Position numbers and translations under genes: made by a program. Positions 20,511 through 24,113 of a stretch of DNA of 34,405 bases are shown piece after piece. The first letter of the stretch is position 1. Each line of letters starts with the position of its first letter. Origin of the DNA: Acidobacteriota bacterium (GTDB lineage: Bacteria > Acidobacteriota > Vicinamibacteria > Vicinamibacterales > UBA8438). The notes under the pieces were generated by a model. That model was not told the DNA's origin. It saw only the letters and a program-made list of their open reading frames with translations, and made no database searches. The stretch is from contig PAUN01000077.1 in the NCBI GenBank assembly GCA_002712885.1, forward strand, positions 13,446-47,850. Direction: 5' to 3'.

Positions 20511-21026
20511 TCAATCGTCTTCCACGACTTCGATGATGCCGCGCATCATCTTCTCGTGCGGCACACAGACGTAGACCTGACGACCGGGTCGCGCGGGGGC
20601 GCGCACAAGCACCGTCGTCGACGCTTCGGTCTTGAGATAGCGAGTTTCGAGGCCCCAGGCCTCGACGGCGAGGTTGTGGGTAAGACCGGGGTCCCGATTG
20701 AGGACGGTGAATCGCACCTCTTCGCCGGCTCGCAGCTGAATCGTGGGGTTTGGCTCCGACTCGCCCTCCAAATAGAAGGCCATGTCCCGCGTGATGAGCG
20801 TGATCTCCCGCACGGCCGCGCTCGTACTGGCGGTCAAGGGCAATAGCAGCATCACACATAGCAGACCGATCGCTACGACGAGCACCGCCGCCACCGCACC
20901 GCGCGCTCCGTGACCTAGCAGCCCGTGTTGAAGGTCCCGCTGCATTCGACCGGCCCAGCGCCGGTCTCGGTGCGACGCGCGACCTTCAACACGGGCTGCT
21001 AGTCCAGCGCGCTCATTCTCCACCAT
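20511..21026 (-). CDS. Membrane-anchored cupredoxin (plastocyanin/azurin-like)
   Basis: A 171-residue protein: a cytoplasmic N-terminal tail (residues 1 to about 43), one transmembrane helix (AVAAVLVVAIGLLCVMLLLP), then a periplasmic cupredoxin domain. The type 1 copper ligands are His117 in LTHNLAV, Cys154, His157 and Met160 or Met161 in YVCVPHEKMMRG. It should carry electrons or bind copper at the outer face of the membrane. ATG 21026 has GAGGG about 9 bases upstream. Residues 9-36 are encoded by an 88-bp palindromic element lying in frame. Removing one 84-base unit would leave MVENERAG-LGHGARG-AVAAV. It is 42 bases behind the ZIP gene in the same operon. Confidence 0.82.
   Translation of the reverse strand: MVENERAGLAARVEGRASHRDRRWAGRMQRDLQHGLLGHGARGAVAAVLVVAIGLLCVMLLLPLTASTSAAVREITLITRDMAFYLEGESEPNPTIQLRAGEEVRFTVLNRDPGLTHNLAVEAWGLETRYLKTEASTTVLVRAPARPGRQVYVCVPHEKMMRGIIEVVEDD
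20915..21002. mobile_element. 88-bp palindromic element with perfect 22-bp inverted repeats
   Basis: CTAGCAGCCCGTGTTGAAGG (continuing TC, 20915-20936) is repeated exactly in reverse complement at 20981-21002. The centre holds a second hairpin, GACCGGC-CCAGC-GCCGGTC (20948-20966). Both ends are CTAG, which may be a 4-bp target duplication. The net insert is then 84 bp, a multiple of three. It lies in the 5' end of the cupredoxin gene and remains open in that frame. Confidence 0.75.
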
Positions 21027-21068
21027 GTCTCTACCCTCAGCTCGACCGCCCGACATCCTCAACCACCC

Positions 21069-22292
21069 TCATCCGACAATGAGCCCAGTCACATACATCA
21101 CCGCCGCCCCGGCGAAGAGACCGCTCGCGACCGGTGCGGTCGTCACATACCCAGCGAATGACCTGTCACCGACCATCTGGCGCGACAGCTGGACGATCAC
21201 CTGGGCGATGGCCCCCGCCCCGAGCGCGAGACAGAGCACCGACCAGATCGGGGAATAGACGAGCCCACCGATCCAGGCGCCGACGATCGTGGGCCCGCCG
21301 CCCAACGCGCCCAGGCGGACAAGCTGAGAGAGCCGGACCCGCTCGTGCGCCAGCGGCGCCACGATCGCCAATCCTTCGGTGGTGTTATGCAGCGTGAAAC
21401 CCACAATCAACACGGTGCCCAGCGACGCCTCGCCGAGCGAGAACGCGGCGCCAATCGCCAACCCTTCTCCGAAGTTGTGCAATCCGATGCCGGTAGCCAC
21501 CAGCAGGGCCAGGACCCAGCCGCGGCCTGCCCCATCGGTCTCCGCCCGTCGACCACGTAACGACCCGCCTACCATCTCGAGTCCGATGAACGCAGCGAGC
21601 GCGCCGAACGCGAACAGCGCCACCCCCTGGAACGACCCGGGCGCCAGCGCCGCCGCCTCCAGTCCCTCCTGGCCCGCCTCGATGAGCAGGAACAGCAGCA
21701 GGCCGATCGTCAGCGCAAGCAGGAAGTCGAGACCAGTACGGCCCGTCCGTGAGACAAGCGGTAGCCAGAGCAGACCGATGGCGACCGGGATGACCCCGAC
21801 ATACAACCCGATCAGCGTGAAAATACCGAGAAACCGCGCATCGGCCCGCGGTGTCTCGACCGCGACGGCGACCTCGTGGTCGACGGTGACCCCGGTTGCG
21901 GTCACGACCCGCACCACATGCGTGTCCCCCTGCACCCAGGGATAGGGAATCGTCAGGGTCGTGCGCCCGAGATGCGCCAGCGTCGTGCCTGGATCGGCGG
22001 AAAACCCCCAGAACGCATCGTCCACCTGCACCTGGGCAATGGTCACCGGGTCTGGGCCGTCGTTGAACACGGTGGCAACAAAGCCGTCTGGTCCGAGCGT
22101 GATCCGTTGGAACGCCAGGTCCTCAACCGGTGGGTACGCCTCGCCTCGGAGGACGTCGGCCGGGCCGGACCACAGCATCAACCCGAGCAATCCGCCAAGC
22201 AGAACCAGAGGCAGCGCTGCGAGGGCCCAGAGCGTCGGTCCCCGCACCTGTCGGTCGGCGATTGGGGCGGCGGCGCGCGACTCAAGCGGCAC
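21069..22292 (-). CDS. ZIP-family metal transporter with N-terminal extracytoplasmic domain
   Basis: A 407-residue membrane protein. One N-terminal helix (LWALAALPLVLLGGLLGLML) is followed by about 110 residues of Ig-like or FixG-like beta structure (FVATVFNDGPDPVTIAQVQV to VDHEVAVAVET). Seven or eight transmembrane helices follow. The ZIP metal site is clear: TGIGLHNFGEGLAIGAAF (helix IV, HN-x2-GE) and FTLHNTTEGLAI (helix V, HN-x2-EG), the binuclear site for Zn, Fe or Mn. The added domain is not part of a standard ZIP transporter. The GTG start at 22292 has GGAGG 6 bases before it and overlaps the multicopper oxidase stop by 11 bases, so the two are coupled. The metal is likely Mn or Fe, judging only from the DtxR-type neighbour. 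Confidence 0.87.
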   Translation of the reverse strand: MPLESRAAAPIADRQVRGPTLWALAALPLVLLGGLLGLMLWSGPADVLRGEAYPPVEDLAFQRITLGPDGFVATVFNDGPDPVTIAQVQVDDAFWGFSADPGTTLAHLGRTTLTIPYPWVQGDTHVVRVVTATGVTVDHEVAVAVETPRADARFLGIFTLIGLYVGVIPVAIGLLWLPLVSRTGRTGLDFLLALTIGLLLFLLIEAGQEGLEAAALAPGSFQGVALFAFGALAAFIGLEMVGGSLRGRRAETDGAGRGWVLALLVATGIGLHNFGEGLAIGAAFSLGEASLGTVLIVGFTLHNTTEGLAIVAPLAHERVRLSQLVRLGALGGGPTIVGAWIGGLVYSPIWSVLCLALGAGAIAQVIVQLSRQMVGDRSFAGYVTTAPVASGLFAGAAVMYVTGLIVG

Positions 22293-23370
22293 TTCGGGCC
22301 TCCGCTCGAAACAGCCCCATCCAACCCAACTCCGCGAACTCGCTCTGGTGGGCGTGGAACATGAACTCGCCGGGATAGCGGAACGTGGTTTCCAGAATCG
22401 CCCGCTCGCCCTGACACAGCATGATGGTGTCGGTAGACTCGGAGGGGGTCATGGAGGTGCCGGTCTTGAACACATCGAAGAACATCCCGTGCAGATGCAT
22501 GCTGTTGATCAGATCAAACTCGGTGAGGTTGACCACATACATGCGAACCAGCTGGCCCACCTGGACGCGAATCGGTTCCTGCACATAGAAACTGGCCACC
22601 GTGTTGGCGGCATACACCTCGTTCTCGGCGTCGAAATTAGTGTCGAACGCGTTGAGCACCATCACCATTTCGTCGGCCGGCGGCCGTGGCGACGTGGCCG
22701 GAGGATCGATGATGAACGCGCCGTATAGTCCTTTGTGTACGTGCCGCTTCAGCGGATTCGCGTGACAGTGATACAGGTGCACGCCGAACGGGTCCGCATC
22801 AAACTCGTAGAGAAAGCTCTCTCCCGGCAACACCTGGTGGGCCGGCAGCGAGCCATCCATATCCGGTGGATGCCAGCCGTGAAAATGCAGCGTGTGCGGG
22901 TGCGACCCCTGGTTGACGAAGTTGATCCGGAGACGGTCGCCGGCGGTGGCCCGGAGAGTCGGACCGGGCACCTGCCCGTTGTAGGTCCACGCCGGAAAGA
23001 ACACGCCGGGCGCAATCTCGATGTCACGGTCAATCGCAAACATCTCGTATTCGCGCAAGGTGGTACCGTCAATCCGGGGCGTTTCGCGGTAGAATCGCGC
23101 CCGCTCGTCAGCCGGGAGATCCGAGAAGTTCCAGGAGCGTAAAAACCGGGTTGGGTCGAACGTCTCGGTGGACACGCGGCCGACGGGACCCATCGCGCTG
23201 CCGCGATGATCCGGCGTGGAGACGACCTCAGGTGTCCCTTGACCACCCACCGTGCCTTGCGCCACGGCCGCGACACCGCCAGTCAGCGACCCAAGCCCGG
23301 CCAGCCGCAGCCATGCCCGGCGGGACCAGGGTCTGGTTTTGGCACCATCAAGATTCCGTGTTTGAGTCAT
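22282..23370 (-). CDS. Tat-exported two-domain multicopper oxidase
   Basis: A 362-residue multicopper oxidase with a Tat signal (SRRAWLRLAG, residues 16-25). Domain 1 carries HPHTLHFHGWH (157-167) and YHCH (200-203) with His210 or His212 after it, so it holds the type 1 copper Cys202. Domain 2 carries MHLHGMFF (291-298) and FHAHQSEFAELGWMG (338-352), with Ala340 where a type 1 Cys would be. The type 1 site is therefore only in domain 1, the arrangement of some two-domain laccase-like oxidases. Family enzymes oxidise metals or phenols with oxygen, or reduce nitrite. Placement with ZIP and DtxR-like genes favours metal oxidation, by inference. It is the first gene of the operon, 19 bases from the predicted transcription start. 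Confidence 0.92.
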   Translation of the reverse strand: MTQTRNLDGAKTRPWSRRAWLRLAGLGSLTGGVAAVAQGTVGGQGTPEVVSTPDHRGSAMGPVGRVSTETFDPTRFLRSWNFSDLPADERARFYRETPRIDGTTLREYEMFAIDRDIEIAPGVFFPAWTYNGQVPGPTLRATAGDRLRINFVNQGSHPHTLHFHGWHPPDMDGSLPAHQVLPGESFLYEFDADPFGVHLYHCHANPLKRHVHKGLYGAFIIDPPATSPRPPADEMVMVLNAFDTNFDAENEVYAANTVASFYVQEPIRVQVGQLVRMYVVNLTEFDLINSMHLHGMFFDVFKTGTSMTPSESTDTIMLCQGERAILETTFRYPGEFMFHAHQSEFAELGWMGLFRAEARSAA

Positions 23371-23396
23371 TGACAGTCACGTTTTGACAACTCAAA
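23361..23396. promoter_or_regulatory. Inverted repeat in the divergent promoter region, candidate metalloregulator operator
   Basis: TTTGAGT (23361-23367) and ACTCAAA (23390-23396) form a 7-bp inverted repeat with 22 bases between, and TTGACA occurs twice inside it (23370, 23384). It overlaps the start of the oxidase gene and lies within both divergent promoters. It is a plausible binding site for the DtxR-like protein, but no known DtxR/MntR consensus is matched. Confidence 0.35.
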
Positions 23397-23398
23397 AT
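23370..23398 (+). promoter_or_regulatory. Promoter for the DtxR-family regulator gene
   Basis: TTGACA (23370-23375) and CAAAAT (23393-23398) are 17 bases apart, followed about 40 bases later by the ATG. The -35 is perfect and the -10 matches four of six bases. It overlaps the candidate operator. Confidence 0.5.
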
Positions 23399-23425
23399 AT
23401 AGAACTGACGGAGTAGAAAAGTCAA
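23396..23425 (-). promoter_or_regulatory. Promoter for the multicopper oxidase-ZIP-cupredoxin operon
   Basis: On the minus strand TTGACT (23420-23425) and TATATT (23396-23401) are 18 bases apart, in an unusually AT-rich intergenic patch. The predicted start is near 23389, giving a leader of about 19 bases. Confidence 0.6.
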
Positions 23426-23444
23426 TCAAATCCATTGGCAGCCC

Positions 23445-24113
23445 ATGCTTGCATCCAGCACCGTCGAGAACTATCTGAAGGCGCTCTATCAGGCCGAAAC
23501 CTCACGGAGGGACAAGGCGCTGGTGCCAATGGGGCAGCTCGCGACCGCCGTCGGGGTCGCCCCGGGCACGGCCACGACGATGGTCAAGGCGCTGGCCGAC
23601 TCGGGGCTCGTTGACTACGAGCCCTACGTCGGAGTCCGGCTGTCATCGGCCGGAGCCAAACTGGCGGCGTTGGTGCTCCGACGGCACCGTCTCATCGAAC
23701 AGTTCCTGGTCGAAGTCGTGGGAATGAGCTGGGCCGAGGTCCACGAGGATGCGGAACAACTCGAGCATGTCGTGTCGGACCGCTTAATCGAGCGGATGGA
23801 TGCCATACTGGGACATCCGTCTGTCGATCCCCACGGCGACCCGATTCCGACCCCGGACGGCACGGTTGCCGCGCCCAACTACCACTCGCTGCTGACGTGC
23901 CCACTCCACATCGCGGTGACGGTAACGCGGGTCACGGATCAGGATGCCAGCTTCCTCAGATTTCTGGAAAACCAGAATCTGAAGCCGGGCAACTCGCTCG
24001 AGGTGGAGGCGCGAGACTCAGCGGCCGACAGCGTGCAGCTACGGACCAGCGCCGGGCACCAGATCACCATCGGTATGCAGGCCGCATCCAAGGTCCTGAT
24101 CGAGGCGTCGTAG
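23445..24113 (+). CDS. DtxR/MntR-family metal-dependent transcriptional regulator
   Basis: A 222-residue regulator with three regions. The N-terminal winged helix (residues 1-65) has SSTVENYLKALYQAE, LATAVGVAPGTATTMVKALA and SGLVDYEPYVGVRLS. The metal-binding dimerisation domain (about 66-140) has LRRHRLIEQFLVEVVGMSWA, EVHEDAEQLEHVVSDRLIER and HPSVDPHGDPIP. The C-terminal FeoA/SH3-like domain is about 145-222. The HRLIEQFL, HEDAEQLEH and HPxxDPHGxPIP segments supply the metal ligands of the family. It should repress when Fe(II) or Mn(II) binds. It diverges from the oxidase-ZIP-cupredoxin operon with 74 bases between starts, so that operon is its likely target. No strong ribosome-binding site precedes the ATG. 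Confidence 0.92.
   Translation: MLASSTVENYLKALYQAETSRRDKALVPMGQLATAVGVAPGTATTMVKALADSGLVDYEPYVGVRLSSAGAKLAALVLRRHRLIEQFLVEVVGMSWAEVHEDAEQLEHVVSDRLIERMDAILGHPSVDPHGDPIPTPDGTVAAPNYHSLLTCPLHIAVTVTRVTDQDASFLRFLENQNLKPGNSLEVEARDSAADSVQLRTSAGHQITIGMQAASKVLIEAS

Follow-up and report, generated by a model that had tools for sequence, protein, structure and literature searches.

A MITE of an IS5/IS1182-like transposon, very probably fused in frame into a cupredoxin-like gene in the Vicinamibacterales

Small mobile repeats in bacterial genes

In-frame fusions of MITEs and similar repeats with bacterial genes are already known, as is the targeting of CTAG by bacterial transposons. The Rickettsia palindromic elements (RPE; Ogata et al., 2000, 2002, as cited in PMC10969869 and PMC2229807) are, in the accounts given there, small palindromic repeats with an open frame that have become fused in frame into genes for conserved proteins, and in-frame fusions are also known for ERIC and for the 107-bp Correia elements (PMC2229807), which occur in unrelated hosts. 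The tetranucleotide duplicated by IS5 is Py-T-A-Pu, usually CTAG (PMC5493358), and MITEPsy1 of Pseudomonas syringae, an element of about 100 bp with 18-bp terminal repeats, makes a 4-bp duplication of CTAG or YTAA, shares its ends with a resident transposon, and is tentatively placed with IS5 (PMC3189936). REP elements, another class of palindromic repeat, are 20–40 bp long (PMC3733652).

The element described here resembles each of these in part. Its likeness to the RPE, judged by their description in PMC10969869 and PMC2229807, is one of behavior and not of sequence: the RPE are, by those accounts, about 150 bp long and often intragenic, whereas in the present family only a few of the copies lie in frame within genes, those few being N-terminal, and a parent transposon can be identified. 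The comparison with ERIC and the Correia elements is likewise one of description. MITEPsy1 is similar in size, terminal repeats, duplication, and relation to a transposon, but it has a different end sequence, its insertion of 104 bp shifts the reading frame, and its transposition has been shown in the laboratory (PMC3189936). With IS5- and IS1182-type insertion sequences the family shares a DDE transposase, which fits neither model fully. In the literature searched for such elements we found no description of this MITE family or its parent transposon; the family, in a lineage for which we found no such report, together with its parent transposon, empty sites, and positional pattern, thus appears to be undescribed. 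It offers a clear example of mobile DNA turned into coding sequence in uncultured environmental bacteria, backed by empty sites in sister genomes, by a parent transposon whose ends match, and by one insert kept across two species.

A palindromic insert in a cupredoxin-like gene

The window, by which we mean the whole stretch of 34,405 nucleotides that was analyzed, has its strongest inverted repeat at positions 20915–21002, the next pairs being 71–82% complementary. An earlier note, made from the sequence alone, had described a perfect 22-bp inverted repeat with CTAG ends here, and this is what we find: the arms at 20915–20936 and 20981–21002 match perfectly over 22 bp (and at 96% over 26 bp) and enclose 44 bp that contain a second hairpin. 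The mobile unit is the 80 bp at 20919–20998 (CAGC...GCTG, running from CAGCCCGTGTTGAAGGTC to GACCTTCAACACGGGCTG and read through on the minus strand), flanked by one copy of CTAG at 20915–20918 and another at 20999–21002. It is too short to encode a transposase and ends in perfect 18-bp arms, the first at 20919–20936 on the plus strand (CAGCCCGTGTTGAAGGTC) and the second, its exact reverse complement, at 20981–20998 on the minus strand; the window has two occurrences of this 18-bp arm where 0.04 would be expected. As RNA the 88 nt are predicted to fold at −70.8 kcal/mol (z = −11.1), which none of 200 shuffled sequences equaled, and an Rfam search of the window gave no match.

The insert lies after codon 8 of a gene on the minus strand (20511–21026) for a membrane-anchored cupredoxin-like protein of 171 aa. 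Its start codon is the ATG at 21024–21026 on the minus strand, preceded by a GAGGG ribosome site at 21034–21038, and the GAGGGTAG...ATG arrangement is kept with minor change in three congeners (G002, G003, and G004). From the ATG at 21026 the frame runs open through the element and into the transmembrane helix without a stop codon; counted with one CTAG, the element adds 84 bp, or 28 codons, and leaves the frame unbroken. Both this count and the position between the start signals and the transmembrane helix agree with the earlier note. The protein matches NCBIfam TIGR03095 (E 9e-5, under that model's cut-off) and the PDB entries 6hbe (E 4e-4) and 5u7n (E 4e-3), a Pfam search with it gave no match, and it is weakly related to rusticyanin, to CuA and nitrite-reductase cupredoxins, and to the copper domains of cytochrome oxidase.

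Orthologues are present in four congeners and all are without the 28 residues, which is the empty site that had been predicted for relatives. Two of them (G003, MRATERAGRRHGTRG; G004, MVDTERVGAWHGTRG) have the same length here as the predicted ancestor MVENERAGLGHGARG, and the closest congener (G002, 93% identity) reads MVKNQRHGARG, four residues shorter at the insertion point. CTAG itself is found at the empty site in none of the four, so the pre-insertion sequence is deduced from length and flanks. Against G002 the gene has a dN/dS of 0.25, a value that averages the time before and after the insertion and so does not by itself prove constraint since then; by this measure the gene appears to be still constrained. 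Beside it in the window (21069–24113) lie genes for a ZIP-like transporter, a multicopper oxidase, and, recognized by eye, a DtxR/MntR-like regulator, with which the cupredoxin gene likely forms a metal-handling cluster.

We consider it very probable that the 88 bp are an 80-bp non-autonomous MITE of an IS5/IS1182-like transposon of this Vicinamibacterales family, plus the duplicated CTAG, fused in frame into the gene. Supplied in trans, a DDE transposase that recognizes ends of the CAGCCCGTGGTGAAAGTC type would have cut the target and inserted the element with a 4-bp duplication. The target would have been a CTAG within the gene, after codon 8 and ahead of the membrane helix, read as CTA-G with CTA for Leu. 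Since 84 bp are 28 codons and the CTA frame has no stop, the gene would have survived with an Arg-rich extension of 28 residues on its predicted cytoplasmic tail. The copies of the element, its target duplication, and the empty sites thus uphold the proposal that the added residues come from mobile DNA; the tail is presumably translated, and it presumably brought no new function.

Other in-frame fusions and what they suggest

We know of four in-frame insertions in total: that in the cupredoxin gene, two more with empty sites, and one without. The second, in the same genome, is in a di-haem oxidoreductase that reads MSRRAELV-[29 residues]-RAVIAVGW, against MIRSAELVGVVVAVGW in G002; the site is empty in G002 and G003, and the gene lies downstream of an apparent coxB. 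Near the 3' end of this insert-bearing gene there is also a different palindromic repeat (L167, 1368–1472; 26-bp arms, 92% complementary). The third is in a PQQ-dehydrogenase of two species (G018 and G017), where the insert stands between AKSAG and LVTLALMVTLAA and the empty site in G016 reads AKSAGLVALALCMTLAA; the insert differs between the two species by a 12-bp indel with the frame kept, and its dN/dS is 0.45, against 0.12 for the remainder of the gene. The fourth (L204) is a plausible in-frame insertion directly following a signal peptide that was predicted by eye; we looked for a homologue with an empty site and did not find one.

Of the four inserts, three are thus in the basic region that precedes a signal or transmembrane helix, and the other directly follows a signal peptide. 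The frame that is read, CTA-GCA-GCC (LAARGE...HGLL), is open in 136 of 232 strand-copies, versus 34 and 17 for the other two frames. A scan of all copies, with genes found by a codon-usage score that was trained on the window and is approximate, turned up no in-frame copy whose two flanks both have a clear coding signal. A candidate intragenic insertion with a long open frame (L194 in G018, 1263 residues reported) was rejected, as coding statistics favor the opposite strand on its right flank, and another candidate for a fusion before a helix (L258) is out of frame at codon 3. The latter, a 160-bp copy in G008 (1191–1350) with a TTAC/TTAC duplication, breaks the gene of a predicted secreted protein.

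Such a broken gene lends some weight to the alternative that the cupredoxin insert is a pseudogene lesion, in which the stem prevents expression or ribosomes start again at the in-frame ATG inside the element (MQRDLQHGLL), so that no extended protein is made. The earlier note had expected a strong stem near the start of the mRNA, and the predicted fold does contain a very stable one from about +14; strong repression does not follow, because the predicted stem leaves the ribosome-binding site and the ATG largely outside. The frame is intact and free of stops, the internal ATG has no ribosome site evident to the eye, and the related insert in the PQQ-dehydrogenase has stayed in frame across two species despite the indel. 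We regard a lesion as unlikely.

It is more doubtful still that the element was kept for a useful basic tail or RNA stem, for example, as a stronger n-region or as a brake on expression. The encoded peptide is Arg-rich, and the in-frame cases affect exported redox or secreted proteins, three of them directly in front of a hydrophobic helix and one right behind a signal peptide. However, the same positions would be expected if n-regions tolerate insertions, the PQQ-dehydrogenase insert is under less constraint than the gene around it, and the window copy occurs in one genome only. We give similarly little credence to a broader form of this idea, that the MITE family is a recurrent source of N-terminal leader extensions, its Arg-rich ...HGLL peptide joining directly onto the hydrophobic helix in redox proteins that are exported, with some insertions kept for altered export, anchoring, or expression.

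Copies, target duplications, and the parent transposon

A MITE should have multiple dispersed copies, and the earlier note had suggested looking for the arm elsewhere in the genome. Related arms are plentiful: when 3 mismatches or fewer are allowed, the family consensus CAGCCCGTGGTGAAAGTC, extended by two flanking bases, has 44 sites in this genome against 1 for a reversed-pattern control, and the window copy's own arm has 17 at the same tolerance. Arm matches are present in 22 of 28 genomes of the family (Vicinamibacterales), with more than 200 in one of them. The exact arm of the window copy, on the other hand, has no other occurrence in 193 genomes of the class, so the family, visible only with the consensus arm, would have been missed by looking for nothing but identical copies. 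The window copy departs from that consensus at two bases, with the same changes in both arms; among 116 copies it is the only one in which two off-consensus bases are common to the arms and neither arm has one of its own. A subfamily that has not been sampled, or repair templated by the hairpin, could account for this.

We extracted 73 distinct two-ended copies at first and 116 later. The length met most often is 158 bp; copies of 80 bp, like that in the window, are rare. The insertion length is divisible by 3 in 80 of the 116 copies, which we do not read as selection: the 158-bp type by itself gives an insertion of 162 bp, and without it the bias is weak (31 of 67). That CTAG is a target duplication had been left conditional in the earlier note. 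The flanking 4-mers are identical in 47 of the 73 copies, with none matching at 5 bp or more, and an exact 4-bp duplication is present in 66 of the larger set of 116. Most are CTAG, the window copy with CTAG on both sides among them. Others are CCAG/CCAG, CTGG/CTGG, and CTCG/CTCG, and because these non-palindromic 4-mers cannot be the ends of a palindrome, CTAG can be taken as a true target duplication, a conclusion strengthened by autonomous copies that are flanked on both sides by CTAG, CTAC, or GTAG.

These autonomous copies belong to an IS5/IS1182-like transposon of 1457–1490 bp with the same ends as the MITE, which is intact in the congener G003 and in other members of the family. G003, of the same genus, has three apparently intact copies of 1465 bp with the exact consensus 18-bp arm, two of them flanked by CTAG/CTAG, and it is through this form that the ends of the MITE can be tied to an autonomous element. 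G015 has a 1457-bp form in about a dozen intact copies, with GTAG/GTAG and CTAC/CTAC flanks. A 1490-bp element with similar ends and CTAC/CTAC flanks (L064, in G027) lies inside an ISAzo13-like transposase gene, recognized by eye, which continues in one frame outside the CTAC pair. Its own transposase has DUF772 and DDE domains and matches both IS1182- and IS5-type models under their cut-offs (NCBIfam NF033551, 185.7 bits against 270; NF033581, IS5_4, 120.7 bits against 140). The preference for CTAG in a 4-bp Py-T-A-Pu duplication is an IS5 trait that the MITE copies share, from which CTAC and GTAG at autonomous copies depart if YTAR is taken strictly. In the window's own assembly (about 94% complete) there is only a transposase remnant of 36 residues, so the enzyme that mobilized the window copy is not seen there; this copy is perhaps stranded, or unassembled sequence may encode the enzyme.

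An origin as a REP/RAYT-type palindrome or an IS200/IS605-type element would account for a palindromic, mostly intergenic repeat that often lies just after genes and in some copies has GTAG at one end, but REP elements are palindromes of 20–40 bp with a GTAG or CGTC tag at one end whereas these copies are commonly 80–170 bp with a commonest length of 158 bp, and the 4-bp duplications and the ends shared with a DDE transposon rule out REP/RAYT and leave such an origin next to no probability.

Insertions at stop codons and the filtering of sites

Since CTAG holds TAG on both strands, a transposon that duplicates it can land on a TAG stop codon and recreate that stop. The TAG stop of an adjoining gene falls within the duplicated 4-mer in 54 of 110 copies (among them L003, L010, L011, L034, L043, L049, and L058), compared with 59 of 238 element-free CTAG sites; this is about twice the background, with an odds ratio of 2.9 and p = 8e-6, a value that is optimistic because some of the copies are related by descent. 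Three copies lie between convergent genes that both end in the duplicated 4-mer. On the simplest reading, insertions at stop sites are harmless, the duplication restoring the stop. CTAG is scarce in the window (23 occurrences versus 37 expected from trinucleotides).

The best explanation for the pattern of surviving copies is that insertion is random and selection then acts as a filter: those in mid-gene or out of frame would be lost, and those at stop codons or in the tolerant region before a signal or transmembrane helix would persist. Two rules follow, both of which can be tested on hundreds of copies. First, a CTAG-duplicating transposon can recreate the TAG stop on which it lands. Second, in-frame insertions would be retained chiefly at the export-signal end of proteins, where the clearest fusions all lie.

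In G003, an 83-bp copy is found with identical upstream context (a gene ending ...FELEEW) at three places (L040, L041, and L042), and the downstream sequence differs or the contig ends, as though the copy marked the border of a larger repeat.
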